Positions 1 through 44,160 of a DNA stretch of 49,822 bases are shown here, in pieces. A program made the position numbers and the translations under genes. Position 1 is the stretch's first letter, and every line of letters starts with the position of its first letter. The DNA is from Lachnospiraceae bacterium (GTDB lineage: Bacteria > Bacillota > Clostridia > Lachnospirales > Lachnospiraceae): positions 1 through 49,822 of the forward strand of contig JAFRGQ010000029.1 in the NCBI GenBank assembly GCA_017433725.1. The letters run 5' to 3'. The notes beneath the pieces are model-generated. The model ran no database searches. It worked only from the letters and a program-made list of their open reading frames with translations, and was not told the origin of the DNA.

Positions 1-3000
1 CCATGAGGTGACAGGTCTTACAGACGGCACGTACACTCTGACAGAGGAGAGCGCACCGAAGGGTTATAAGGTCGCAGAGTCTATCACATTTACAATTAAG
101 GACGGCAAGCTGGTCGAGGACGAGAACGCCAAGGACGGCATAGTCACGATGAAGGACGAGCAGAAGAAGACGGATGTTCAGATCAGCAAGGTCGATGCAG
201 GCGCTGGCAATGAGCTTAAAGGCGCAACGCTGACCCTCACGAAGGAAGGTCAGGAAGAGGCTGTTGACAGCTGGACTTCCGACGGAACGGTTCACACGGT
301 AGCAGGGCTCACGGACGGCGTTTACACACTCGTTGAGGAGAGCGCTCCGAACGGCTACAAGAAAGCAGAATCTATAACATTCACAATTGAGGACGGTAAG
401 CTGGTAGAAGATGCAAATGTCAAGGACGGCATCGTCACGATGGCAGACGAGCAGTACAGCGGCGGCGTATCCATCAGCAAGGAAGTGCTTGGACAGGGCA
501 AAGAACTGGCAGGCGCGGTTCTGGAAGTAAAACAGATCGCTGATGCAGAAGGCACGGCAGTCAGCAAGGAAATTGCAAGCTGGAAAACTGACGGAACACA
601 GAAGGAACTCACAGATCTTGAGGACGGTACATACGTCCTGACAGAGATGAGCGCTCCTGAAGGCTACGTGGTAGCCGAGAGCATAGAGTTCACGATCAAG
701 AACGGCAAGCTGGTTGAAGGCGAGAATGCTCAGGGCGGCGTTGTAACGATGCAGGATGCCCTGAAGAAGACAGACGTCAAGATCAGCAAGGTCGATGCGG
801 GAGCCGGCAATGAACTGATCGGCGCTGCACTTACCGTAACAAGAGTCGCCGATATCGACGGCAATGAAGTGAGCGACGTGATCGAGAGCTGGACATCGAA
901 CGGCAGCGTCCATGAGGTGGCAGGTCTTACAGACGGCACATACACACTTGTTGAGGAGAGCGCACCGGACGGCTATAAGGTCGCAGAGTCCATCACATTT
1001 GTCATCAAGAACGGCAAGCTGGTCGAAGACAAGAACGCCAAGGACGGCATCGTCACAATGAAGGACGAGCTGATGAAGACGGACGTTCAGATCAGCAAGG
1101 TCGATGCAGGACAGGGCAATGAGCTCGTCGGAGCTGCATTGATCCTTACGAAAGAAGGCCAGGATGAAACAGTCGACAAGTGGAAGTCCGACGGCAGCAT
1201 CCACGTAGTGGAAGGTCTGACGGACGGTACATATACTCTGACAGAGCTGAGTGCCCCGGACGGCTATCAGAAGGCGGAGTCGATTACATTTGTCATCAAG
1301 GACGGCAAGCTGGTCGAAGACAAGAACGTTATTAATGGCGTTGTTACAATGCAGGATAAGCAGTACACCGGCGGCGTATCTGTCAGCAAGCAGGCGCTTG
1401 GCCAGGGTACGGAGCTTGCAGGTGCATCTCTCACGGTGACAAAGAAGGGTGAGACAGAGGCAATCGAGAGCTGGACATCCGACGGAACACTGCACGAGAT
1501 CGCAGATCTTGAGGACGGCACATATGTCCTGACAGAGACAAGCGCTCCGGAAGGCTACGAAGTAGCGGAGAGTATTGAGTTCACATTGAAGGACGGCAAG
1601 CTGGTCGAGAGCAGCTATGCTAAGGACGGCGTCGTTACAATGAAGGATGCGCTGAAGACCACTGATGTCAAGATCAGCAAGGTTGACGCAGGTGCCGGAG
1701 CAGAGCTTAAGGGTGCTACACTCACAGTTACAAGGATTGCAGATATCAATGGCAATGAGGCAAACGATCTGATCGAGAGCTGGACGTCCAATGGCACCGC
1801 TCATGAGGTGGCAGGTCTTACGGACGGCACATACAGACTCGTCGAGGAAAGTGCGCCAAACGGCTATAAGGTAGCGGAATCCATCACATTTACAATTAAA
1901 GACGGCAAGCTGGTCGAAGACGCGAACGCTAAGGACGGCATCGTTACAATGAAGGACGAGCTGTTCCGGACAGATGTCAAGGTCAGCAAGGTCGATGCAG
2001 GAGCCGGCAATGAACTGATCGGTGCAAAGCTTACTGTTGAACGAATTGCAGATGCAGCAGGTACAGAGGTCATCGAGACAGTCGAGAGCTGGACATCGGA
2101 TGGAACTGTACATGAAGTAAACGGCCTGACGGATGGTACTTATACTCTGACAGAGTCGAGCGCTCCGGCAGGGTACGAGATTGCTGAGTCCATTATATTT
2201 GTAATCAAGAACGGCAAGCTGGTCGAAGATGCAAACGCCGAGGACGGCATCGTCACAATGAAGGACAGCCAGAAGAAGACGGATGTTAAGATCAGTAAGA
2301 TTGATGCAGGTGCCGGAAATGAACTTGCAGGCGCTACACTGACCCTCACGAAGGAAGGTCAGGATGAGGCAGTTGACAGCTGGATCTCTGACGGCAGTAT
2401 CCATGTAGTATCCGGTATTACAGACGGCATTTACACACTCGTTGAGGAGAGCGCACCGGACGGCTATAAGAAAGCTGAATCTATCACATTTACCGTTAAG
2501 GATGGCATGCTGGTTTCTGCCGGCAATGATGCGATCGTTGATGGCGTAGTTGTGATGGCAGACGAGCAGTACAGCGGCGGCGTATCCATCAGCAAGGAAG
2601 TGCTTGGACAGGGCAAGGAACTGGCAGGCGCGGACCTTACAGTAACAAAGATTGCAGATGCGTCCGGAAATGAAGTCAGCGAACTTATTGACAGCTGGAC
2701 AACGGATGGCAAGCAGCATGAAATCGCTGATCTTGCAGACGGTAAGTATGTCCTGACAGAGACAAGTGCTCCGGAAGGCTATGAAGTAGCAGAAAGCATT
2801 GAGTTCACAATTAAGGACGGCAAGCTGGTAGACGGCGAGGATGCTTCGAGCGGCGTTGTTACAATGCAGGATGCGATGAAGAAGACAGACGTCAAGATCA
2901 GCAAGACAGATGCAGGTCAGGGCGGAGAGCTCATCGGCGCTATGCTCATGGTGACGCGAGTTATGGACATCGCAGGTGACGAAGTCAATGACCTGATTGA

Positions 3001-6000
3001 GAGCTGGACATCTGACGGCACAGTACATGAGATCACAGGCCTTACGGACGGCACATATACTCTTGTTGAGGAAAGTGCACCGAACGGATATAAGGTCGCT
3101 GAATCCATCACATTTACAATTAAGGACGGCAGGCTGGTCGAAGACGAGAACGCCAAGGACGGCGTCGTCACAATGAAGGACGAGCAGAAGAAGACCGACG
3201 TTCAGATCAGCAAGGTCGATGCAGGAGCCGGCAATGAGTTGGCAGGCGCAACGCTTACAGTGACAAGAATCGCTGATGCAGCAGGTACTGAGGTCAGCGA
3301 GGCGGTTGACAGCTGGATCTCTGATGGCAGCATTCACACAGTAGCGGGACTTACGGACGGCACCTACACTCTTACAGAGGAAAGTGCACCGGATGGCTAC
3401 AAGGTTGCTGAATCTATTACATTTGTAATTAAAGACGGCAAGCTTGTCGAGGAAGGAAACGATGCTATCGTTGACGGCGTAGTCAAGATGGCGGATGCGC
3501 AGTATAAGACAGACGTTCAGATCAGCAAGGTCGATATCGGCGCAGGAACAGAGCTGGCGGGTGCAGAGCTTACAGTGACAAGAAGCGCAGATGCTTCCGG
3601 TAAGGAAGTCGATGAGGTAGTTGAGAGCTGGACATCTGACGGCAGCATCCATACAGTAGCAGGCCTTACAGACGGCACATATATTCTGACAGAAGAGAGT
3701 GCGCCGGACGGCTACAAGAAAGCAGAATCTATTACATTTACAATTAAAGATGGCAAGCTGGTCGAGGAAGGCAATGATGCGATCGTTGACGGCATCGTCA
3801 AGATGGCAGATGAGCAGTACAAGGGCGGCGTATCCATCAGCAAGGTAGCGCTCGGACAGGGTACAGAACTGGCAGGTGCGGACCTTACAGTAACGAAGGT
3901 TGCTGATGCAGCAGGCACAGAAGTCAGCGAAATTGTTGAGAGCTGGACAACGGACGGCACGCAGCATGACATTGCAGATCTTGCAGACGGCAAGTATGTC
4001 CTGACAGAGACAAGTGCTCCGGAAGGCTACGAAGTAGCAGAGAGCATTGAGTTCACAATTAAGGAAGGCAAGCTGGTAGACGGCGAGAATGCTTCGAGCG
4101 GCGTAGTTACGATGCAGGATGCTCTGAAGAAGACGAACGTCAAGGTCAGCAAGGTCGATGCAGGAGCCGGTAGTGAACTGGTCGGTGCCGAATTGACAGT
4201 CACAAGAATAGTGAATATTGCAGGCGAGGAAGTCAGCGAGGTGATTGAAAGCTGGACATCCGATGGCAGTGTTCATGAAATAGAAGGCCTCACGGATGGC
4301 ACATATACTCTTGTCGAGGCGAGCGCACCGTACGGCTATGAGGTAGCTGAGTCTATTACATTTGTAATCAAAGACGGCAAGCTGGCAGAGGATGAAAATG
4401 CTGCCGACGGCGTCGTCACGATGAAGGATGAGCTGTACAGGACAGACGTCCAGATCAGCAAGGTCGATGCAGGTCAGGGCAATGAGCTGGCAGGCGCAAC
4501 ACTGACCATCACCAAGGAAGGTCAGGACGAGGCAGTTGCAAGCTGGATCTCCGACGGAACTGTTCACACGGTGGCAGGTCTCACGGATGGCACATATACT
4601 CTTGTTGAGGAAAGTGCGCCGGACGGCTACAAGAAGGCAGAATCTATTACATTTACAATTAAGGACGGCAAGCTGGTAGAAGATGCGAACGTCAAGGACG
4701 GCATCGTCACAATGGCGGATGAGCAGTACAAGGGCGGCGTATCTATCAGTAAGCAGGTACTTGGCCAGGGCAATGAGCTGGCAGGTGCGGACCTTACAGT
4801 AACAAGGATTGCAGATGCATCCGGCAACGAAGTCAATGAACTTGTTGACAGCTGGAAGACAGACGGCATGCAGCATGAGATTGCGGATCTTACAGACGGT
4901 ACGTATGTACTGACAGAGATCAGCGCACCGGAAGGCTATGAAGTAGCAGAGAGCATTGTTTTCGCAATCATCGAAGGCAAGCTGTTCGAAGGTGAGAACG
5001 CTCAGGGCGGTGTTGTCACAATGCAGGATGCAATGAAGAAGACAGATGTCAAGATCAGCAAGACAGATGCAGGCCAGGGCAATGAACTTGCAGGTGCAAC
5101 ACTCACGGTAACCCGTGTAGCTGATATTGCCGGTAACGAGGTCAATGACCTGATTGAGAGCTGGACATCTGATGGCACAATACACGAGATTGCAGGCCTT
5201 ACAGACGGTACATACACTCTTATCGAGGAAAGTGCACCGAACGGATATAAGGTGGCTGAATCCATCACATTTACAATTAAGGACGGCAAGCTGGCAGAAG
5301 ACGAGAATGTTAAGGACGGCGTCGTCACAATGAAGGACGAGCAGTTCAAGACGGACGTTAAGGTCAGCAAGGTGGATGCAGGTCAGGGCAATGAACTGAC
5401 AGGCGCAAACCTTACGGTAACAAAGATTGCGGATGCAGCAGGCGCTGAGGTCAGCGAGAACGTTGCGAGCTGGACATCTGACGGCAAGGTACACGATATC
5501 GCAGGTCTCACAGACGGCACATATACTCTCACAGAGGAGTCTGCGCCGGAAGGATATAATGTCGCTGAGTCGATTACCTTTGTCATCAAGGACGGTAAAC
5601 TGGTCGAGGATGCAAATGTCAAGGACGGCGTCGTCACAATGAAGGACGAGCAGAAGAAGACGGATGTACAGATCAGCAAGGTCGATGCAGGTCAGGGCAA
5701 TGAACTGGCAGGCGCAACACTGACCATTACCAAGGAAGGACAGGATGAGGTAGTTGCAAGCTGGAACTCCGACGGAACTGTTCACACGGTGGCAGGTCTC
5801 ACGGACGGCACATATACTCTCGTTGAGGAAAGTGCACCGGACGGATACAAGAAAGCTGAATCCATCACATTTACAATCAAGGACGGCAAGCTGGTCGAAG
5901 ACGAGAACGCAAAGAATGGCGTCGTCACAATGAAGGACGAGCTGTACAAGGGCGGCGTATCCATCAGTAAGCAGGTACTTGGACAGGGCAATGAACTTGA

Positions 6001-8020
6001 AGGTGCAGAACTTACTGTAAGAAAGATCGCAGATGCAAGCGGCAAGGAGGTTGATAAGAAGGTCGATAGCTGGACATCAGACGGCACGCAGCATGAGATT
6101 GCAGATCTTGAAGACGGCAGATATGTCCTGACAGAGACAAGCGCACCGGAAGGCTACGAAGTAGCTGAGAGTATCGAGTTCACAATCAAGAACGGCAAGT
6201 TGGTCGAAGGCGAAAATGCTGAGGACGGCGTCGTAACAATGCTGGATGCATTGAAGAAGACAGACGTTAAGATCAGCAAGGTCGATGCAGGAGCGGGCAA
6301 TGAACTGCAGGGTGCTGAATTGACAGTTACCAGAATCGCAAATATTGCCGGCCAGGAAGTCAATGAGGTAGTCGAGAGCTGGACATCGGATGGCATAGTT
6401 CATACAGTGGCCGGACTTACGGATGGCACATATACTCTGACAGAGGAGACTGCACCGGATGGTTACAAGAAGGCTGAGTCAATAACATTTGTCATCAAGG
6501 ACGGTAAGCTGGTCGAGGATGCAAACGCCAAGGACGGCATCGTCACGATGAAGGACGAACGTATCAAGGTTAACGTTAAGATCATTCTCTTTGATAAGAG
6601 AACAGGAAAAACGGTCAAAGGCGTGAGAATGATTGTTCGGAAGAGTGACAATGAAGTTGTCGATGAATGGGAGACCGAGGATAAAGAGCATGAAATCAAG
6701 GAGCTCATACTTGGCGAGACGTATACGCTCGAAGAGAAAGTTCCGGCAGGATATGAGGCTGTAGATTCCCTGAAGTTCAGAGTGGATAAGGATGGCAACA
6801 TTCTTAGACTCAATGAGGATGGTTCTACTTCACCGCTCGGTGAGGACGGAATATTCCCGGTCAATATTACTGCTTCAGAAATCAACTTCAAGGTCAACAA
6901 AGTAGACGCCGGAACCGGTGAAGAAGTTGAAGGCGCTGATCTTGCAGTTGTTGAAAGCGGTCAGGACGGTAAGGAGACTGTTCTCGAGAGATGGACATCG
7001 AAGAAAGGCGAGACGCATGACTTTGGCAGCAAGCTTGAACACGGTAAGAAGTACTTACTCCGTGAGGTGACTGCTCCGGAAGGCTACGGTAAGCTGACAA
7101 CGGATATTGCATTCTCTGTAAACGAAGACGGAACAATCCAGACAGAGCTTGCAACGACCAAGGATGCGGACGGAAACATCGTATATCTGGTCGAGAATAC
7201 CAAAATATCAGTCAAGATTTCCAAGGTAGATATCGCAAGCGGTGCGGAACTTGAAGGTGCGAAGATCCGGATACTTGATAAGGACGGACAGGTCATCGAT
7301 GAGTGGACATCCACGAAGGCGGTCCATGTGGTAACCGGTCTTAAGCCGGGTGAAACATATACTCTGAGTGAAACCGTTGCACCGACGGGCTATGCTCTTA
7401 CAGCGGATACAAAGTTTGTTCTGAAAGAAGACGGCAGCATCGATACGACTAAGACGACGACAGCCGTTAAGGATGGCGTGCTGCTCGTTCAGGACAAGAT
7501 GATTAGTGTCAAGGTAAGGAAGCAGGATACGGACGGAAACCTGTTAGGCGGTGCGAAACTTAAGATTTCTTATCGCAATAATAAGGAAGTCAAGGGTGCA
7601 AACTGGACGACAGAGGCAGGTAAGGAGCATACTATTACCGGACTTACTGCAGGATCCTATTACCTGTATGAAGACCAGGCACCGGCCGGTTATCTGAGAG
7701 CGGCGAGAATCGCATTTGACATCGATAAGTATGGCAACATCATCAGAGATGGCAAAATCGTTTCAGTAATCGTCATGACAGACCAGAAGATTACTGGCGG
7801 CAATTCTGAAAACAAGACAACAATTACACAGAGACCCGCGAGCTCGACGTCTGTATCTACCAAGAGCACAACGGGCACAACGACAAAGGCTAAGGCTAAC
7901 GCTAAGACTACCGGAGCCAAGACAGGCGATAATTCACCGATTATGCTGTACATCATTCTGCTTGTAGCAGCAGGTGCGGTCATTGTGGTGATCAAACGCC
8001 GGAGTCAGTCCAACAAATAA
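1..8020 (+). CDS. Giant Cna-B repeat surface protein, sortase anchored (5' end outside window)
   Basis: The reading frame is open at the left edge, so the signal peptide and N-terminal part are missing; about 2,672 codons are visible. I count 26 Cna-B (prealbumin-like, SpaA type) domains, each marked by an E-x-SAP-x-GY motif: 22 near-identical ones of about 95-105 residues, then four diverged ones (nt 6560-7790). Each typical domain has a Lys in ISKVDAG, a Glu before SAP and an Asp in TMKDE or TMQDA. These match the Lys-Glu-Asp triad of self-formed isopeptide bonds in CnaB2 (family knowledge). A Thr/Ser/Lys-rich stalk, AKTGD, a hydrophobic segment and KRRSQSNK end the protein; this is a variant sortase signal with no LPXTG seen. 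It is probably an extended wall-bound adhesin or stalk. Codon use matches the neighbours. The ligand is unknown. Confidence 0.93.
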   Translation, partial: HEVTGLTDGTYTLTEESAPKGYKVAESITFTIKDGKLVEDENAKDGIVTMKDEQKKTDVQISKVDAGAGNELKGATLTLTKEGQEEAVDSWTSDGTVHTVAGLTDGVYTLVEESAPNGYKKAESITFTIEDGKLVEDANVKDGIVTMADEQYSGGVSISKEVLGQGKELAGAVLEVKQIADAEGTAVSKEIASWKTDGTQKELTDLEDGTYVLTEMSAPEGYVVAESIEFTIKNGKLVEGENAQGGVVTMQDALKKTDVKISKVDAGAGNELIGAALTVTRVADIDGNEVSDVIESWTSNGSVHEVAGLTDGTYTLVEESAPDGYKVAESITFVIKNGKLVEDKNAKDGIVTMKDELMKTDVQISKVDAGQGNELVGAALILTKEGQDETVDKWKSDGSIHVVEGLTDGTYTLTELSAPDGYQKAESITFVIKDGKLVEDKNVINGVVTMQDKQYTGGVSVSKQALGQGTELAGASLTVTKKGETEAIESWTSDGTLHEIADLEDGTYVLTETSAPEGYEVAESIEFTLKDGKLVESSYAKDGVVTMKDALKTTDVKISKVDAGAGAELKGATLTVTRIADINGNEANDLIESWTSNGTAHEVAGLTDGTYRLVEESAPNGYKVAESITFTIKDGKLVEDANAKDGIVTMKDELFRTDVKVSKVDAGAGNELIGAKLTVERIADAAGTEVIETVESWTSDGTVHEVNGLTDGTYTLTESSAPAGYEIAESIIFVIKNGKLVEDANAEDGIVTMKDSQKKTDVKISKIDAGAGNELAGATLTLTKEGQDEAVDSWISDGSIHVVSGITDGIYTLVEESAPDGYKKAESITFTVKDGMLVSAGNDAIVDGVVVMADEQYSGGVSISKEVLGQGKELAGADLTVTKIADASGNEVSELIDSWTTDGKQHEIADLADGKYVLTETSAPEGYEVAESIEFTIKDGKLVDGEDASSGVVTMQDAMKKTDVKISKTDAGQGGELIGAMLMVTRVMDIAGDEVNDLIESWTSDGTVHEITGLTDGTYTLVEESAPNGYKVAESITFTIKDGRLVEDENAKDGVVTMKDEQKKTDVQISKVDAGAGNELAGATLTVTRIADAAGTEVSEAVDSWISDGSIHTVAGLTDGTYTLTEESAPDGYKVAESITFVIKDGKLVEEGNDAIVDGVVKMADAQYKTDVQISKVDIGAGTELAGAELTVTRSADASGKEVDEVVESWTSDGSIHTVAGLTDGTYILTEESAPDGYKKAESITFTIKDGKLVEEGNDAIVDGIVKMADEQYKGGVSISKVALGQGTELAGADLTVTKVADAAGTEVSEIVESWTTDGTQHDIADLADGKYVLTETSAPEGYEVAESIEFTIKEGKLVDGENASSGVVTMQDALKKTNVKVSKVDAGAGSELVGAELTVTRIVNIAGEEVSEVIESWTSDGSVHEIEGLTDGTYTLVEASAPYGYEVAESITFVIKDGKLAEDENAADGVVTMKDELYRTDVQISKVDAGQGNELAGATLTITKEGQDEAVASWISDGTVHTVAGLTDGTYTLVEESAPDGYKKAESITFTIKDGKLVEDANVKDGIVTMADEQYKGGVSISKQVLGQGNELAGADLTVTRIADASGNEVNELVDSWKTDGMQHEIADLTDGTYVLTEISAPEGYEVAESIVFAIIEGKLFEGENAQGGVVTMQDAMKKTDVKISKTDAGQGNELAGATLTVTRVADIAGNEVNDLIESWTSDGTIHEIAGLTDGTYTLIEESAPNGYKVAESITFTIKDGKLAEDENVKDGVVTMKDEQFKTDVKVSKVDAGQGNELTGANLTVTKIADAAGAEVSENVASWTSDGKVHDIAGLTDGTYTLTEESAPEGYNVAESITFVIKDGKLVEDANVKDGVVTMKDEQKKTDVQISKVDAGQGNELAGATLTITKEGQDEVVASWNSDGTVHTVAGLTDGTYTLVEESAPDGYKKAESITFTIKDGKLVEDENAKNGVVTMKDELYKGGVSISKQVLGQGNELEGAELTVRKIADASGKEVDKKVDSWTSDGTQHEIADLEDGRYVLTETSAPEGYEVAESIEFTIKNGKLVEGENAEDGVVTMLDALKKTDVKISKVDAGAGNELQGAELTVTRIANIAGQEVNEVVESWTSDGIVHTVAGLTDGTYTLTEETAPDGYKKAESITFVIKDGKLVEDANAKDGIVTMKDERIKVNVKIILFDKRTGKTVKGVRMIVRKSDNEVVDEWETEDKEHEIKELILGETYTLEEKVPAGYEAVDSLKFRVDKDGNILRLNEDGSTSPLGEDGIFPVNITASEINFKVNKVDAGTGEEVEGADLAVVESGQDGKETVLERWTSKKGETHDFGSKLEHGKKYLLREVTAPEGYGKLTTDIAFSVNEDGTIQTELATTKDADGNIVYLVENTKISVKISKVDIASGAELEGAKIRILDKDGQVIDEWTSTKAVHVVTGLKPGETYTLSETVAPTGYALTADTKFVLKEDGSIDTTKTTTAVKDGVLLVQDKMISVKVRKQDTDGNLLGGAKLKISYRNNKEVKGANWTTEAGKEHTITGLTAGSYYLYEDQAPAGYLRAARIAFDIDKYGNIIRDGKIVSVIVMTDQKITGGNSENKTTITQRPASSTSVSTKSTTGTTTKAKANAKTTGAKTGDNSPIMLYIILLVAAGAVIVVIKRRSQSNK
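461..6560 (+). repeat. Higher-order repeat of Cna-B domains (three- and four-domain superunits)
   Basis: Domains whose first strand reads GGVSISK instead of TDVKISK start near 461, 1370, 2575, 3824, 4733 and 5951. Spacings are 909, 1205, 1249, 909 and 1218 bp, so superunits hold three or four domains. Within a superunit the order is fixed: a domain with D/N-I-x-G-x-E-V, an optional D-A-A-G-T-E-V domain, a domain ending GYKKAES (usually with KEGQDE), then the GGV domain. This implies growth by unequal exchange of whole superunits rather than of single domains. Confidence 0.85.
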
Positions 8021-8064
8021 TGATTAAGGCTTTGCGCTTACGGGCAAAGCGGTAGCTGATTGAA

Positions 8065-8162
8065 GGGGCTGCTGCATGGAGTCCTGCACAACGAAGACAG
8101 TCGGAATATGCATAGAATACCGGCACTTCGTTGGGCAGAGCTTCGTGCGGCAGCTCCTTTTT
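8065..8162. terminator. Long composite hairpin (element A) after the Cna-B gene
   Basis: The outer arms GGGGCTGCTGCAT and GTGCGGCAGCTCC pair with few mismatches and are followed by a run of five T. An inner arm AACGAAG pairs with CTTCGTT. The position 45 bp after the stop fits a rho-independent terminator. Its architecture matches the longer hairpins at 18.7, 39.0 and 43.7 kb, although the inner sequence differs. The rest of the 388-bp gap holds a possible promoter and two TAATCAACTGTA repeats. Confidence 0.6.
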
Positions 8163-8268
8163 GAATGGAATCTTTCTATTCGCTGATTGTTCTGGAGTCA
8201 TACCTTATGAGCGTGAGCTGAAATAGTAGTAAATATGTGGATTTTAAGGTAAGATAAAAGAGTAGATG

Positions 8269-8388
8269 TATAATCAACTGTAGATTTCCAGTATATAGTA
8301 AGTGAACAGTCTTTCACATCAAATGCATCGACAGAGCGCTTACGATGGTACTTTAGATAGGAATCGGGGCTTTGTAATCAACTGTAAA
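8269..8388 (+). promoter_or_regulatory. Possible promoter and direct-repeat operator before the first Gfo/Idh gene
   Basis: A TATAAT lies at 8269-8274 without a clear -35 box. The 12-bp sequence TAATCAACTGTA occurs at 8271-8282 and again at 8375-8386, 104 bp apart, the second copy just before the ribosome site. Two copies this far apart suggest a regulator-binding pair, but no regulator is identified. Confidence 0.35.
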
Positions 8389-8408
8389 CGTTATGAAAGG
8401 AGTCGCAC

Positions 8409-9545
8409 ATGATGAAAACCGCTGTTATCGGAGTAGGAAATATGGGCAGCAAGTACGCCAGTCTCATTCAAAACGGTCAGATACCGGGGCTGGAACTCGC
8501 CGCAGTCACGCGGGTGCGCGACCCGTACCGCAAGTTAATATCTGAGGAAGTGCCTGTCTTTGAATCTGCCGATGCTCTTTTTGATGCTGTTGAAAGAGGC
8601 AATCTGGCACTTGATGCCGTCGTCATTGCAACGCCACACTATTCGCATGAGGAGATCGCAATCCGGGCTTTCCGGAACGGATTGCACGTGCTGTCTGACA
8701 AGCCATCCGGCGTTTACAGCCGGCAAGCCCGCCTTATGGAGGAAGCTGCGGACGAAGCCGGTACGACTTTCGGGATGGTCTTTAATCAGCGGACACTGCC
8801 TGTCTATCAGCTTCTCCGCGAGATCGTCACAAGCGGCCGGTACGGCGGGCTGAAACGTGTGAATTGGATTGTTACTGACTGGTATCGCCCGAATAAGTAT
8901 TACTCGTCGAGTTCGTGGCACGCAACCTGGGCAAAAGACGGTGGCGGTGTCCTTCTCAATCAGTGTCCGCACAATCTTGACCTGATGCAGTGGATTTGCG
9001 GTATGCCTGCCAGGGTTCAGGGCTTCTGTATTGAAGGACATTTTCACGACATTGAGGTCGAGGATGATGTTACGATGTACATGGAGTGGGAAAATGGCGC
9101 CACCGGAACCTTCATCTCCTGCACCGGCGAAGCTCCGGGCGTGAATCGGTTGGAGATCTCTCTCGATGAGGCCCTGCTTGTCTGCGAGAACGGGAAAATG
9201 CGAATCGGAGAGCTCACAGAGGAGCTTGGCATGAAAGAGGCCGAGTATCGCCGGACATCAACGGATTATTTCAGGAAAATTAACGGGACCTGGTCTGAGA
9301 TCGTTCCGAAGCAGGAGGAGGATCCTTATGGGGAGGTGCTGAGGGCATTTGCCAATGAATGCCTGGGACGAGGTCAAAGTGTTGCGGATGGAAGAGAGGG
9401 GCGGAAGAGCCTGCTTATGTCCAATGCGGCTTACCTGTCTTCCTGGGAACATCGGATGGTCGAGATTCCTGAGATTGGGAGTGAGGCCGAGCGCATATTT
9501 GAGGAGAAGTATGAGGGTTGGCTGAGGAAGAAGATGGGGGAGTGA
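8409..9545 (+). CDS. Gfo/Idh/MocA family NAD(P)-dependent oxidoreductase
   Basis: A 378-residue protein of the usual family length. The N-terminal Rossmann fold carries GVGNMGSKYA at residues 7-16, and DKPSG near residue 97 is the family's E/D-K-P motif, whose Lys usually helps catalysis. The C-terminal half has the mixed beta-sheet substrate domain with DGGGVLLNQCPH. Such enzymes oxidise or reduce sugars, inositols or sugar derivatives; the substrate cannot be told here. The ribosome site AAAGGAG at 8396-8402 serves ATG 8409 or the adjacent ATG 8412. It stands alone, with a dispersed repeat element directly after the stop. Confidence 0.9.
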   Translation: MMKTAVIGVGNMGSKYASLIQNGQIPGLELAAVTRVRDPYRKLISEEVPVFESADALFDAVERGNLALDAVVIATPHYSHEEIAIRAFRNGLHVLSDKPSGVYSRQARLMEEAADEAGTTFGMVFNQRTLPVYQLLREIVTSGRYGGLKRVNWIVTDWYRPNKYYSSSSWHATWAKDGGGVLLNQCPHNLDLMQWICGMPARVQGFCIEGHFHDIEVEDDVTMYMEWENGATGTFISCTGEAPGVNRLEISLDEALLVCENGKMRIGELTEELGMKEAEYRRTSTDYFRKINGTWSEIVPKQEEDPYGEVLRAFANECLGRGQSVADGREGRKSLLMSNAAYLSSWEHRMVEIPEIGSEAERIFEEKYEGWLRKKMGE

Positions 9546-9560
9546 TTACGGTAGAAGGAA

Positions 9561-9660
9561 TTAATCTCTGACGCAGAATTCTCGTGACTTTAGTCGTGAG
9601 ATGAATGCGCAAAATGAAGCTTGTCTCTGACATGGGATACAAACCTGCGTCAGAGATTAA
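9561..9660. repeat. Dispersed intergenic element R, copy 1, with 16-bp terminal inverted repeats
   Basis: The element starts TTAATCTCTGACGCAG (9561-9576) and ends with its exact reverse complement CTGCGTCAGAGATTAA (9645-9660). Inside are TCGTGAC, GTCGTGAGATGAATGCGC and TTGTCTCTGACATGG, shared with copies near 18.6, 20.0 and 39.1 kb. It may be a small non-autonomous transposon-like element or a structured RNA. No coding capacity is evident. Confidence 0.7.
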
Positions 9661-9679
9661 AAGCCTCTGGCGGATCGCA

Positions 9680-9743
9680 GCCGCGCATTAAGGAAGGTGC
9701 TTCGCACCATGCGCGGCGCGGCAAGAACGCCGAGGCGTTCTTG
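9680..9743. other. Two GC-rich hairpins upstream of the kinase promoter
   Basis: GCCGCGCAT (9680-9688) pairs with ATGCGCGGC (9709-9717), with an inner GGTGC-TTC-GCACC. A second hairpin has CAAGAACGC (9722-9730) and GCGTTCTTG (9735-9743). Neither is followed by a T run. They end 14 bp before the -35 box of the next promoter. Confidence 0.5.
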
Positions 9744-9757
9744 GTTTGCAGTAGTAT

Positions 9758-9815
9758 TTGACGAGCGTCAATTAAAAAGGTATAATCGGGATTAAGAGAA
9801 TGAAATATTTGACGC
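9758..9815 (+). promoter_or_regulatory. Strong promoter with overlapping palindrome, for the HipA-like kinase gene
   Basis: TTGACG (9758-9763), a 17-bp spacer and a perfect TATAAT (9781-9786) form a near-consensus vegetative promoter. The -35 box lies inside the interrupted palindrome TTGACG-AG-CGTCAA. A related half, TTTGACGCACGT, recurs at about 9808-9819 just downstream of the expected start point. This layout suggests negative control by a DNA-binding protein, perhaps the HTH protein of the same operon (inference). Confidence 0.75.
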
Positions 9816-9846
9816 ACGTAAAAGACAATTGTATGTGGAGCGCTTG

Positions 9847-38444: not shown

Positions 38445-38580
38445 AAGTCCCGCGTCAGACCTCGTAAGAGGGGCTTGACCTGTGTCAGCCGTAAAATCCC
38501 GTAGCCTCGTGAGCGAGGTTTGAATTGTGTCAGCTGTAAAGTCTCACATCCTTGTGAGCTGGACTTGAAACAGGCGTTGT
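38445..38580. repeat. 45-bp tandem repeat, about three copies, upstream of the VanX-like gene
   Basis: CCTCGTAAG at 38460, CCTCGTGAG at 38505 and CCTTGTGAG at 38550 mark three units of 45 bp, each with a following GACCTGTGTCAGC-like or AATTGTGTCAGC-like segment. Copies have diverged. The rest of this 341-bp gap shows nothing clear. Confidence 0.75.
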
Positions 38581-39122: not shown

Positions 39123-39240
39123 TTTTAATCTCTGACGCAGAATTCTCGTGACGTGAGTCTATGATGAATGCGCAAAATGATACTTGTCTCTGACGCAGAA
39201 TTCTCGTGAGATGAATGCACAAAATGAAACTTGTCTCACA
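39123..39240. repeat. Dispersed element R, two copies, reaching the end of the RyR gene
   Basis: TTTAATCTCTGACGCAG starts the first copy, and a shortened second copy (CTCTGACGCAGAATTCTCG, then GATGAATGCACAAAATGAAA) runs to the stop codon of the minus-strand gene at 39236. The last two codons of that gene lie against the repeat, suggesting insertion at or into its end. Confidence 0.75.
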
Positions 39241-41092
39241 CAAGCAGCTCCGGTATCAGCTGAATTGTGTGGCGGTCCATCTCCGGATAATCCGGATCGA
39301 CTCCCGTGACAGCCTGCTCCCGAAGATCAAGCTCCGGAAGCTCCTCCCACGGAATCAGGCACGCGTGTGTTCTGTCATGCCGGTTTTTCCCGATCTTAAT
39401 ATTGGAATAACCTTTTTCTGCTTTTTCGCGCTTGTATAGTTCTGCCCGCGCATTCCACTCCTCTATCGACATCGTCTGATAGCGGTGGGCAAACAAAAAT
39501 GCGCACCACCTCTCATGCTCTGTCCGGTAGAGCGTCTCCTCCTGCCTTTTCGTAAGCATCAGACCGTTCTTAAGCACATCTTCCTTAGTCTTTCCTACCA
39601 TATGCAAAAATGCCGGTACAAAATCCGCGGCAGCTTCTGAACTCAGGCGGTTGAAATAATCGCAGGCGATCCAGTTTTCTTCTGCTGTTTTTCCGTTGTT
39701 TCCGCAGTAATGCTGATTCAACTCCTTGGCTCTCCGGTCCATAGCCTCTCCGGATACTATGGCCTGGTTGTAAAGAGGCCAGGTCTTTCGCACAATTCCG
39801 TCTTCCTCCGTACGAATTTCTGTTACCTCAGATGAACGGCACGACATGAGGTAAGCTTTGGGATTTACCGTATGCAGGATGTTCGCATAGGAATACTCCA
39901 GTTCCGAATCTGTCTGCCCGCCCGTAGCAATCACAATGTACCGCAGATCCCCGGCGTGACGACGGAGATAGTCAAATGCTTCTTCGCTCCGTCCATCCTT
40001 ATCCGAAAATGAAATATCATACTGATGCAGCATGCCCTCGTACATCAATTTGAAGGCACCGCTCTTTGATTTTCCCGCAGGATCAAAAATCATGGCTGAA
40101 AAATGACTTCCGGCAAATTGTCCATGCATGACCAGCGCTTTTAAAGCGGCCTGTCCCATGGTTCCGAATCCGACGATCATGACATGGAAATCTTCATTTG
40201 CACAGGCATTTTCGTCGAATGTAAGGGTTTTGTACGGAGGACAGTCTGTGATCATAATTCTCGCGGCAAGAGAGGTGTCTTCGAAGACGTGGATATTTTC
40301 AAAACCGTAGTGCGTATCGGTGTTCATCAGGGAGGATATGTCAAAATATTCATTTGCACATAGAATCAGACGTGTGCCGGCTGTCGGCACACGGAGATTT
40401 TTCATGGATTTGCGGAAGGAACGAGCGTAAGCGATATTTTCCGCGGCGGAATCGCCCACCGCGTAAACGGTGACCTCTCGGCCGGGTCGGCCCATAGCGA
40501 TTGTCTTCAGGAACGATTCGGTCGCCGAGGAAGCGGCATTGTGAGAGGTATGGACCGCTCTCATATCCCGTATTTTTCCCAGAACTTCACCCGGCATGTT
40601 CTTATCACAGATAAAGAGGACTTTTTCCCCCTGGCTGCACAATTCACTTCCGAGATACAGAGTATGGTCGTTCACAAACGGAAACACGTTCAGTTCTCCC
40701 CTGCGCAGCATAATCCCTCTGACACGGTTCATAAAACCCGAGCCGAAAGCCGTCATCGCAGCGCTAGCTGTGACGTAGAGGGCGAGAATCTGCGCTATAT
40801 AAAAGAAGAACTGGATCGGTAGCAATTCAAAAAAGGACAAATTAGACATGTCTTTGAGCGAATCTTTTCCGAGAAACATTCCGATAACGGCAAAAAGCGT
40901 CTTGAGAATAGCTATGACTGTGTTTTCTTCATCTATTGAGTAGCCGTACCCATAAAGGAAGAAGCCGAGAAAATTGGCCAATCCGCCGACAAGGATTAAA
41001 ATTTTCTTAGTTGCCTGCGGCTTAAGAAGCAGATTGGCAATTAATACCAGCATGATCGCACATGGCGCCGACACAACAATAAAGATTTTCAT
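39236..41092 (-). CDS. Membrane protein with TrkA-N-like Rossmann lobes and a C-terminal RyR domain
   Basis: 618 residues. The N-terminal 115 residues hold about four helices. Two nucleotide-binding-like lobes follow, near 135-290 and 300-450; the second has VMIVGFGTMGQAALKAL, a clear dinucleotide loop as in TrkA-N. Residues about 525-590 (EHERWCAFLFAHRY, then CLIPWEELPELD) match the RyR domain, which in bacteria is predicted to sense nucleotide-type ligands. No K+-channel selectivity filter is seen. It starts 29 bp after the TIR gene with GGGAGG. The pair may form a membrane sensor-effector unit. Confidence 0.72.
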   Translation of the reverse strand: MKIFIVVSAPCAIMLVLIANLLLKPQATKKILILVGGLANFLGFFLYGYGYSIDEENTVIAILKTLFAVIGMFLGKDSLKDMSNLSFFELLPIQFFFYIAQILALYVTASAAMTAFGSGFMNRVRGIMLRRGELNVFPFVNDHTLYLGSELCSQGEKVLFICDKNMPGEVLGKIRDMRAVHTSHNAASSATESFLKTIAMGRPGREVTVYAVGDSAAENIAYARSFRKSMKNLRVPTAGTRLILCANEYFDISSLMNTDTHYGFENIHVFEDTSLAARIMITDCPPYKTLTFDENACANEDFHVMIVGFGTMGQAALKALVMHGQFAGSHFSAMIFDPAGKSKSGAFKLMYEGMLHQYDISFSDKDGRSEEAFDYLRRHAGDLRYIVIATGGQTDSELEYSYANILHTVNPKAYLMSCRSSEVTEIRTEEDGIVRKTWPLYNQAIVSGEAMDRRAKELNQHYCGNNGKTAEENWIACDYFNRLSSEAAADFVPAFLHMVGKTKEDVLKNGLMLTKRQEETLYRTEHERWCAFLFAHRYQTMSIEEWNARAELYKREKAEKGYSNIKIGKNRHDRTHACLIPWEELPELDLREQAVTGVDPDYPEMDRHTIQLIPELLV

Positions 41093-41121
41093 GACGACCT
41101 CCCGTAATAGTTACGACGTTC

Positions 41122-42282
41122 TTAATTCATGGAAAAAGAGGAGTGTCTCTCCACGTAATTCAGCTCCTGCCACATCTGGTTGTACTCATCATAAATGCGT
41201 TCATTATCCATATATCCCTGCACGTCGGTCGGGTACATAAGATAATAGTATTCCTCAGCATTTCTTCCCAGTTCGCTGTAACTGGGCAAAACTTTATAAT
41301 CCTGTGTTTTGCTGTAGCACAGGGAAAACAGCTTGCCTCCGTGTGAGCCTTCGTGAATCTGCCAGGCGTTCCTGCTGCCCTCATGGTAGAAGACAAAATT
41401 TTTGTCCTCTTCCATGACCGTAATCTTATTTTTCCAGGATATCGGCATGACAATGACGGGACCGCTGCGGAAAGTATATGTCAGGTTCTCCTCATCTGTT
41501 GAGACGGAGTAGATCCACCGTGGATCCGGCGTTGTCTCTGCCGGAGTCTCGACTGTTGAATCCGGTTCTGAAACAGTGCCGGAAGATGTGTCTGTGATTG
41601 TCGCGGCAGAACTGTCCGGACTTGCTGTGTTGCTGTCCGGGCTCACTTCACTGCTGTCCGTTGATGTCACCGCGGGAACGGTCTGTTCAGGAGGTTCTTT
41701 TGTGGATTTGTTTTGAGATACAGCAAAGAAGATGAGAAGAGCAGCCAGGACGATACCCAGACCGGCTGCGATACGGATGTCCGGCTTTTTCTTTTTAGTC
41801 GCTGTAGGTTCTGCATTTTGAGCGTTCGATTCATCGGGAATATCCGTAGCGGGATTGATTTTGCAGGGGTCCATGTAGGAGCAGGACTCTATTTTATCCA
41901 GGAAGCGGACCTCATCCGTGAAGTTATAGCGCAGGACGCTCTGCTGGGAAGACAACTGTAATTCCATTCCCGCCGGTATTTCCGTTTTCTCCAGAACAAC
42001 GGAGAGGAGAGGCTTGCCTTTGGACATGGCATAATTGATCTCTCTTCTGCAGTTGACAGACTCCATGGAGTCATTTGTGATCATAGCCAGGACCATCTCT
42101 GCGCGAAGGAGATGATTGGCAATATTTTCCGGCCATTCCGAGCCCGGCTCGATTCCCTCGTCATACCAGATCCGGTAGCCTCTTGCCGCGAGCTTCTCAA
42201 TCAGGTCGAACACTTCACGGCTGTCTTTATGTGCGTAACTGACAAAAATAAATGGGAGATTTCCTTCGTAAGCAGCAATCAT
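41122..42282 (-). CDS. TIR domain protein with a transmembrane segment and extracytoplasmic domain
   Basis: 386 residues. The TIR domain (about 10-130) has FIFVSYAHKDS, GYRIWYDEGIEPGSEWPENI and NCRREINYA; E81 lies where NAD+-cleaving TIR domains have their catalytic Glu. A Lys-rich stretch precedes one helix (171-189), then a Ser/Thr/Pro-rich linker (191-255) and a folded C-terminal domain (256-386) with FYHEGSRNAW and GGKLFSLC. The positive-inside rule puts TIR in the cytosol and the last domain outside. It is first in an operon with the RyR-domain gene. AGGTGA precedes ATG 42282. Confidence 0.85.
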   Translation of the reverse strand: MIAAYEGNLPFIFVSYAHKDSREVFDLIEKLAARGYRIWYDEGIEPGSEWPENIANHLLRAEMVLAMITNDSMESVNCRREINYAMSKGKPLLSVVLEKTEIPAGMELQLSSQQSVLRYNFTDEVRFLDKIESCSYMDPCKINPATDIPDESNAQNAEPTATKKKKPDIRIAAGLGIVLAALLIFFAVSQNKSTKEPPEQTVPAVTSTDSSEVSPDSNTASPDSSAATITDTSSGTVSEPDSTVETPAETTPDPRWIYSVSTDEENLTYTFRSGPVIVMPISWKNKITVMEEDKNFVFYHEGSRNAWQIHEGSHGGKLFSLCYSKTQDYKVLPSYSELGRNAEEYYYLMYPTDVQGYMDNERIYDEYNQMWQELNYVERHSSFSMN

Positions 42283-42318
42283 GATTTCACCTGCCTGTAC
42301 ATAGTTTTAGATGGTTTT

Positions 42319-42347
42319 ATTATATCAGAGCGCAATAACGAATGCAA
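42319..42347 (-). promoter_or_regulatory. Promoter of the TIR-RyR operon
   Basis: Read on the minus strand, TTGCAT and TATAAT are separated by 17 bp and lie 37 bp upstream of the TIR start. The same 308-bp gap has a plus-strand TATAAT at 42438-42443 that may serve the flavin reductase gene. Confidence 0.7.
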
Positions 42348-43926: not shown

Positions 43927-44070
43927 TTATACAGATTTCTTGCCGTTTTTAAGAATCGCGTCGATCAGATAAATGATACCGCTCTTTCTCTTAACATAGA
44001 TCTGTTTCTTGCCGCCGTTTACAATTGAAAGCTCGTTGAGGTTCATTTCCTTCATATTTGTATTCTTCAT
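43927..44070 (-). CDS. Small peptide with a double-glycine leader (bacteriocin-like)
   Basis: 47 residues from the ATG at 44070, which has AGGAG 8 bp upstream; a longer frame starts at 44133 but without a ribosome site. The first 20 residues (MKNTNMKEMNLNELSIVNGG) are a textbook double-glycine leader, recognised by C39-peptidase ABC exporters. The remaining 27 residues (KKQIYVKRKS, then GIIYLIDAILKNGKKSV) are strongly basic with a hydrophobic centre, as in cationic bacteriocins or peptide pheromones. No transporter, immunity or kinase gene is adjacent. The function is inferred. Confidence 0.7.
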   Translation of the reverse strand: MKNTNMKEMNLNELSIVNGGKKQIYVKRKSGIIYLIDAILKNGKKSV

Positions 44071-44091
44071 TTTGATTCTCCTGCATAATGA

Positions 44092-44160
44092 TATTTGTTT
44101 TACATCGGTGTAGATGTTGTTATTTGTTTTCACCGATGTAGAGCTTGTTATTTGCTTTAC
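44092..44160 (-). promoter_or_regulatory. Direct and inverted repeats upstream of the double-glycine peptide gene
   Basis: TATTTG(T/C)TTT starts near 44092, 44121 and 44149 (29 and 28 bp apart). ACATCGGTG (44102-44110) has its exact complement CACCGATGT at 44131-44139. A TATAAA on the minus strand near 44166 could be the -10 box, which would put the repeats in the leader RNA. Either regulator binding or an RNA hairpin is possible. Confidence 0.5.

Follow-up and report, generated by a model that had tools for sequence, protein, structure and literature searches.

What a TIR protein with a predicted membrane helix might signal to, and through what kind of partner, is the question raised by a gene pair in a 49,822-nucleotide stretch of DNA from a Lachnospiraceae bacterium (contig JAFRGQ010000029.1 of assembly GCA_017433725.1; the whole stretch is referred to here as the window). 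The two open reading frames (ORFs) are intact and lie 29 bp apart on the minus strand, with the TIR gene first and a gene for a protein called P here following it, and the assembly (2.66 Mb) is rated 77 % complete. An interpretation made earlier from the sequence alone, the sequence-only reading, had placed both open frames there, which was confirmed, and had proposed that P reads the product of the TIR enzyme and may then change ion flow. Overall, that interpretation is partly supported and can be sharpened at two points, namely where the trigger probably lies and to which proteins P appears to be related.

Pairing of TIR genes with P across genomes

Loci were collected using P, and never the TIR protein, as the query and 36 were kept; a 180 amino acid (aa) fragment at a contig end (L029/L161) and channel-like hits lacking the K+ filter were left out. 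A TIR gene was found within 1 kb of P, or of the block formed by P and a channel gene, at 21 of the 36 loci (19 of the 32 clusters formed at 90 % identity) and about 2.1 kb away at two more. Fifteen of the 21 close pairs are on the same strand, five are divergent and one is convergent. The remaining 13 loci include no TIR gene in the fetched stretch, though some of these stretches end at contig ends. A lack of co-inheritance in related genomes, which the sequence-only reading named as grounds for refutation, is not seen overall, but these 13 loci depart from the pattern. When the presence of a TIR gene was mapped onto a phylogeny of all 36 P proteins, 8 changes were needed compared to a mean of 11.8 for shuffled labels, and 6 of 500 shuffles gave a number as low. 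The pairing is thus distributed across many branches and has been gained or lost repeatedly. None of the five rows in one poorly supported group, of which three sit on long branches, has a TIR within 1 kb.

An independent count was made within the genus. The Pfam model TIR_2 gave 40 matches in 20 of the 42 genomes, and 13 P genes (E below 1e-45; the count leaves out a weak match in G004 and fragments) were found in 10. These 10 genomes contain 19 TIR_2 genes, of which 11 lie beside a P, and a TIR_2 gene adjoins 11 of the 13 P genes, the exceptions being those in G002 and G035. The rough chance expectation is about 0.05 (26 TIR–P combinations at about 0.002 each). The evidence that the pairing is not accidental, and goes far beyond chance, is strong.

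In the window's genome, each of the two TIR_2 genes adjoins one of the two P genes. At the second locus (L023; G000:C11:1-15161, 4503-9838), a divergent TIR–P pair and a RyR–K+ channel gene all lie together, and this P is 33 % identical to the P in the window. On plasmid pNP243 of Butyrivibrio fibrisolvens D1 (L118; NZ_CP146964.1, 6236-10815), a TIR gene is followed 320 bp on by a P gene annotated as encoding a hypothetical protein. A search for relatives of the complete locus recovered one near copy (L003), from the uncultured Lachnospiraceae bacterium RUG12161 (RUG presumably indicating rumen), with a P that is 99 % identical and a TIR protein that is 90 % identical.

It might be argued that TIR and P are unrelated accessory genes that often settle in common hot spots, and the P loci without a TIR gene, together with the 8 of the 19 TIR_2 genes in the P-bearing genus genomes that lie elsewhere, would fit this. 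However, the nearest TIR is further than 1 kb away at only two of the 23 loci that have one, the pairs occur in three orientations, with different outer parts and in many parts of the P phylogeny, and both TIR_2 genes of the window's genome are paired. In addition, none of the five RyR–K+ channel genes at loci lacking P has a TIR gene in the fetched stretch, indicating that the pairing goes with P, though this control is small and two of its stretches are only about 5 kb. Mere neighbourhood is already disfavoured and we consider it very improbable.

The TIR hidden Markov model (HMM) used across the loci was seeded from TIRs near P, a bias that the Pfam TIR_2 count offsets for the genus only. 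With this HMM, TIR hits within about 110 bp were obtained for 3 of the 13 filter-less channel-like hits that lack P; two of these TIR hits are partial and without the Glu at the catalytic position. L159 has a weaker TIR hit (E 2e-07) next door. Ten genes neighbouring P were searched with Pfam, nine of them from loci that, on a loose count, have no TIR within 1 kb (at L067 and L112 there is one at 2.1 kb), and no TIR was found. The neighbours were two zinc-ribbon proteins, a weak glycosidase match, an LRR_5 protein, KARI, a nitroreductase, a histidine kinase, a weak Castor/Pollux match, an M48 peptidase and one protein with no family. Of the TIR-less P genes, those at L103 and L104 are beside the zinc-ribbon proteins, that at L110 is near the LRR_5 protein and that at L064 is beside a gene for a PPIase-like lipoprotein (assigned by eye), with a gene of the same size in that place at L101. 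Perhaps the TIR-less P loci have other inputs.

Receptor-like TIR proteins and a relative of RyR-domain K+ channels

The TIR protein in the window has the domains that the sequence-only reading had described (Table 1). Its TIR fold passes the curated model TIR_2 and Glu81 is in place; Glu also occupies this column in 27 of the 30 TIR-HMM matches across all loci, the others being the degenerate second TIR of L102 and partial matches at L114 and L068. A membrane helix was found after the TIR domain, with more K/R residues before than after it, in 22 of the 25 TIR proteins at P loci. One of the remaining three (L080) is cut by a contig end. Five homologues of the outer domain include signal-peptide-like stretches, identified by eye. 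Because of the K/R excess on the TIR side of the helix and these secreted-looking homologues, the TIR domain is predicted to be inside the cell and the last domain outside.

The outer parts vary. Among seven of the 25 TIR proteins scanned with Pfam, LRR (L105), Sel1 (L063) and TPR (L102) matches were found, and propeller/PQQ matches exceeded the cut-off in L022 but fell short of it in L065, L118 and L107; a Pfam scan of the outer domain of the window protein gives no LRR. Proteins with the order TIR, membrane helix, LRR adjoin P at L105 (9915-11951) and L106 (6697-8754), the LRR being identified by Pfam in L105, with which L106 was grouped on the basis of alike P neighbours. With a constant inner enzyme and varied outer parts, the TIR proteins of P loci look like a family of receptors and, as most of them resemble membrane receptors with an outer part, the trigger for the TIR protein is probably outside the cell, a refinement of what had been proposed.

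P by itself matched 0 families at E≤1 in Pfam, NCBIfam and PADLOC and, therefore, the analysis was built on family profiles, starting from an alignment of the window P and 15 relatives (16 members). The two Rossmann lobes previously recognized in P are supported at this family level; Pfam TrkA_N was detected at E≤0.1 in 5 of the 16 members and the second lobe contains the GFGTMG motif. A RyR domain had also been claimed. The sole match of the window P alone in the PDB was a RyR1 chimera at E 0.085, but the profile of the C-terminal segment of the family found this chimera at 1.3e-7 and four entries named ‘putative ryanodine receptor’ at 0.0036–0.005 (including 3nrt at 0.0036), together with two further matches at 0.07–0.1, one of which is not a RyR. 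Hence, the domain is recovered by the family profile and not from the window protein alone.

At 12 of the 36 P loci, a second gene beside P is a channel gene encoding Ion_trans_2 and RyR domains. Such channels were selected by their TVGYGD-type filter, and its presence in 17 of 17 is by construction. At E≤0.1, the RyR family PF02026 was detected in 11 of the 11 aligned channels, and in the first of these the match exceeds the cut-off (32.5 vs 27.4). In a single pairwise hhalign comparison of P (25 of 29 rows) with the channels (12 rows), residues 93–587 of P aligned with channel residues 68–527 over 420 columns at 4.7e-31, beginning at the inner helix of the channel. When compared by part, the RyR domains aligned at 1.4e-12 (one comparison) and the lobes also aligned (Table 1); a mismatched control, one comparison of the P RyR domain with the channel lobes, gave nothing. 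On the basis of the 420-column profile alignment, which covers the inner helix, both Rossmann lobes and the RyR domain, P is a divergent relative of the RyR–K+ channels. RCK-gated K+ channels are among its closest known counterparts. P differs from the RyR–K+ channels in having GMFLG or a similar sequence at the place expected for the K+ filter. The pore-loop-like motif that includes this region precedes the helix aligned to the channel inner helix; its M72 and G75 are invariant in the 16 rows and are found in 30 and 27, respectively, of the 36 P proteins, and a role in a pore can be suggested for it. RyR-domain K+ channels with a TVGYGD filter and neither P nor TIR in the fetched stretch are found at L148, L149, L151, L153 and L155.

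A possible receptor–channel pathway and its alternatives

In PMC13232231, residues H75, W78, H100 and D117 of the phage protein RyDEP are described as contacting a ligand derived from cyclic ADP-ribose (cADPR). In a sequence alignment, H526, W529, H576 and D606 of P line up with them. The first three are present in 36 of 36 P proteins and D606 in 34, the exceptions (L007 and L065, both beside a TIR) having Asn. The H526–W529 spacing is that of RyDEP, and H576 and D606 follow after insertions. In the channels, the corresponding residues (H491, W494, H516 and D533) have the RyDEP spacing throughout (3, 22 and 17); all 17 retain the H, W and H, and 14 of the 17 have the D in the same column, with the D of the other three one place off when examined by eye. 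The same source reports that six of eight RyDEP homologues tested bound signals, that the homologues tested did not cleave them despite high conservation, and that RyR proteins with hydrolase activity and with sponge activity exist. As the homologues mostly bind and do not cleave, the residues conserved in P favour ligand binding and do not settle between binding and hydrolysis.

The pairing, the retained Glu, the kinship with channels and the cADPR-contact residues are as predicted if P reads the product of the TIR enzyme and changes ion flow, and this part of the sequence-only reading gains support from them. The pathway that we propose would begin with the TIR protein in the membrane, the TIR domain inside and the sensor domain outside, where it would sense something at the surface. 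Once triggered, the TIR domains would cluster and convert NAD+ to an ADP-ribose-type signal, for which a first guess would be 2′- or 3′-cADPR. Binding of the signal by the RyR domain of P would be relayed by the Rossmann lobes to the channel-like membrane part, and at other loci P may act jointly with the K+ channel encoded next to it. A shift in ion flow or in membrane potential would then lead to cell arrest, death or a stress response. We give this chain, from an outside-sensing TIR receptor via an ADP-ribose-type signal and the RyR domain of P to altered ion flow, an even chance of being right. The sequences themselves show the domains, the conserved residues and the pairing, whereas topology, catalysis, ligand, gating, ion, trigger and benefit are inferred. 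The wider generalization, that transmembrane TIR receptors with swappable sensors (including LRR, Sel1, TPR and propeller-type ones) produce messengers of the cADPR type by which RyR-domain channels are gated, either P alone or P with a RyR–K+ channel, is more tentative and falls clearly short of even.

If P were instead a brake, its RyR domain would bind or cleave the TIR product and silence the TIR receptor, and the damage would come from NAD+ loss itself. P retains the residues equivalent to the RyDEP catalytic dyad (H526 and D606), RyR hydrolases and sponges are among the proteins reported in PMC13232231, and P genes with no TIR nearby need not be lethal. However, the two P proteins in which D606 is replaced by Asn are both beside a TIR, a soluble enzyme would suffice for this purpose and a 600-aa membrane protein of channel kinship suggests an output, and the neighbouring K+ channels bear a RyR domain too. 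We regard the brake as unlikely.

Several findings weigh against the receptor–channel pathway. Among the P loci, 13 lack a TIR in the fetched stretch, including L020, whose P is a 75 % orthologue of that in the window, and where a channel gene accompanies P a TIR is present in 7 of 12 cases and absent in 5. Two TIR proteins of P loci (L065 and L111) have no membrane helix at the threshold used. The RyR domain (PF02026) of the window P is invisible to Pfam, with 0 families at E≤1, and the PDB matches of the P RyR profile span about 30 residues. The profile of the P membrane part alone aligned with nothing in the channel comparison, and with nothing in the PDB other than one irrelevant match at E 0.9, and no TVGYGD-type K+ filter motif was found in P. 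The behaviour of the RyDEP homologues, which bound signals in most cases and did not cleave them, also counts here. No sign of a defence island was seen among 10 other window proteins examined with Pfam (PADLOC was not run on them), and the G+C content of the locus is within the range of its flanks.

The last two observations bear on what such a pair would be for. Two purposes are live, action against phages and the signalling of surface stress. As an envelope-stress or cell-surface pair with no role against phages, the outer domain would sense the state of the wall, ions or nutrients and P would adjust K+ or membrane potential. Sensors predicted to lie outside the membrane, an outer domain shared with secreted-looking proteins, a G+C content like that of the flanks and ordinary near neighbours are all consistent with this. 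Of the 10 window proteins examined, five within 3 kb, nine belong to ordinary families and one has none, and those near the pair include DUF386, an M15 dipeptidase, a flavin reductase and a glutathione peroxidase. On the other hand, P is patchily distributed, with a match in 11 of 42 genus genomes, many of them incomplete, and the varied outer parts and the plasmid location look like those of accessory conflict genes. A further point against it comes from an Arcobacter plasmid (L119; CP146529.1, 3967-7690), where TrkA_N, RyR (40.2 bits vs 27.4) and DUF4062 genes adjoin each other and genes for an integrase, a recombinase and type I restriction are near them. DUF4062 is reported in PMC13174449 to be a TIR-like NADase family, and the trio may represent an RyR–NADase-type pairing in another phylum that parallels TIR–P. 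A pair devoted to envelope stress is possible but, in our view, doubtful.

Comparison with known systems

One of the closest known systems for the proposed receptor–channel pathway is Thoeris, in which a TIR protein, ThsB, works with an effector. In both cases a TIR protein with the catalytic Glu is encoded beside a partner with a predicted domain for binding an ADP-ribose signal, and the window TIR passes Pfam ThsB_TIR (24.5 bits vs 21.2), though TIR_2 fits far better (72.2). The window TIR differs in being a predicted membrane protein with an outer sensor. It falls below the NCBIfam equivalog that it meets best, ThcB4 (31.1 bits vs 220), and the PADLOC ThsB models, for which no cut-off is given, score at most 24.2 bits on it and cover the TIR part only. 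P is in no effector family of Pfam, NCBIfam or PADLOC, the comparison covering the Thoeris types older than the newest ones. The pair differs from Thoeris in the predicted membrane receptor form, the failure to reach the equivalog and a partner not known to the models scanned. To our knowledge, the TIR sensors of the bacterial signalling systems that have been studied well are soluble, in contrast to the membrane helix in most TIR proteins of P loci and their constant channel-like RyR partner.

Animals have Toll-like receptors, and a link between cADPR and ryanodine receptors has been drawn. The window pair shares with the former an inner TIR, a membrane helix and an outer sensor (an LRR in L105), with the RyR domain of P as the presumed ligand site, but the domain order of the TIR proteins is reversed and the window protein has no LRR. 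P also differs from animal ryanodine receptors in having Rossmann lobes and K+-type relatives, and the likeness is an analogy only. If the pathway is correct, it joins two animal themes, TIR receptors and cADPR–ryanodine receptor signalling, in one prokaryotic operon, and it would provide a bacterial system in which RyR domains and cADPR-type nucleotides, whose link is disputed, could be tested directly, and for which Butyrivibrio fibrisolvens D1 with plasmid pNP243 is a named carrier strain. Work by Burroughs from 2015 reportedly connected RyR with TIR domains in conflict systems based on nucleotides and may describe the pair. Among the literature matches listed there was no description of the TIR–P pair; an earlier description may exist and no priority is claimed. 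The cADPR–ryanodine receptor link is also raised in PMC13232231. RyDEP, presented there as a RyR/R12-domain cADPR glycosidase or sponge, shares the H..W, H and D ligand residues with P but is a phage counter-defence protein, whereas P is a bacterial membrane protein encoded beside the TIR itself. The pathway, if true, would suggest what the phage RyR sponges and hydrolases mimic.

Features, distribution and setting of the locus

Table 1. Coordinates in the window of the TIR–P gene pair and its features
Feature	Position	Strand	Observation
TIR gene (putative receptor)	41122..42282	-	386 aa: TIR, membrane helix, Ser/Thr/Pro-rich linker, outer domain
TIR domain, aa 12-111	41950..42249	-	Pfam TIR_2 6.9e-20, 72.2 bits vs cut-off 28
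Glu81 codon, catalytic-position Glu	42040..42042	-	Glu in 9/9 rows of TIR alignment
Single membrane helix, aa 171-189	41716..41772	-	Hydropathy 2.64; K/R 5 before, 2 after
Outer domain, aa 251-386	41125..41532	-	phmmer 5.1e-23 to 2.6e-11 vs five proteins of related genomes
P gene	39236..41092	-	618 aa: membrane segments, two Rossmann lobes, RyR domain
Membrane part of P, aa 5-113	40754..41080	-	Four hydrophobic segments
Pore-loop-like motif KTLFAVIGMFLGKD, aa 64-77	40862..40903	-	Ahead of helix aligned to channel inner helix; without K+ filter
Two Rossmann (TrkA-N/RCK-like) lobes, aa 130-504	39581..40705	-	hhalign vs RyR–K+ channel profile E 1e-20
GFGTMG nucleotide-binding-type motif, second lobe, aa 308-313	40154..40171	-	G308 36/36, G310 33/36, G313 33/36
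RyR domain of P, aa 505-618	39239..39580	-	Carries H526, W529, H576, D606
Gap between TIR gene and P	41093..41121	-	29 bp; ribosome-binding-like GGGAGG just ahead of the ATG of P (by eye)
Promoter-like TTGCAT-17-TATAAT	42319..42347	-	Upstream of TIR gene; stretch chosen by eye

The sequence-only reading had assigned a single promoter to the pair. The TTGCAT-17-TATAAT stretch is plausible in this role, but the list produced by a promoter scanner does not include it and its -35 box matches at 3 of 6 positions.

P is narrowly and patchily distributed. Any P match was found in 11 of 299 and 14 of 397 genomes in two samples of the family, in 17 of 295 for the order and in 2 of 299 for the phylum, both of the latter being from the same family. 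The cut-off was 0.001 for the genus and the first family sample and 1e-10 for the others, and the window's own genome is counted in every sample. With regard to whether the pair lies on a recently acquired island, besides the G+C content given above, the flavin reductase that flanks it has 65–67 % orthologues in three genus genomes; in one (G006) P is on a different contig and the other two (G013 and G039) have no P match. Only G030 shares the site of the window pair. No relatives of the locus were found in viral contigs, and a tblastn search with P gave no match in phages and one record among plasmids; a DNA search of plasmids found none. When the RyR–K+ channel of the window's genome was used against plasmids, tblastn gave three partial matches, in Arcobacter (described above), Aeromonas salmonicida and Thermomicrobium. 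The Aeromonas salmonicida RyR gene is surrounded by hypothetical and phage-like genes and has no annotated TIR near it, and the Thermomicrobium match is channel-only.

Repeats occur at and just past the end of P, where 28-bp repeats (93 % alike) form two pairs that interleave at 39129-39237, and two 45-nt copies that are 73 % alike lie at 38460-38549. On the other side of the pair, a small peptide encoded at 43927-44133 (minus strand) has a double-glycine-type leader, ELSIVNGG, recognized by eye, and is possibly bacteriocin-like or a signalling peptide. At the start of the window, 8-8020 (plus strand) encodes a very large protein with 25 SpaA-domain stretches that is probably a surface protein.

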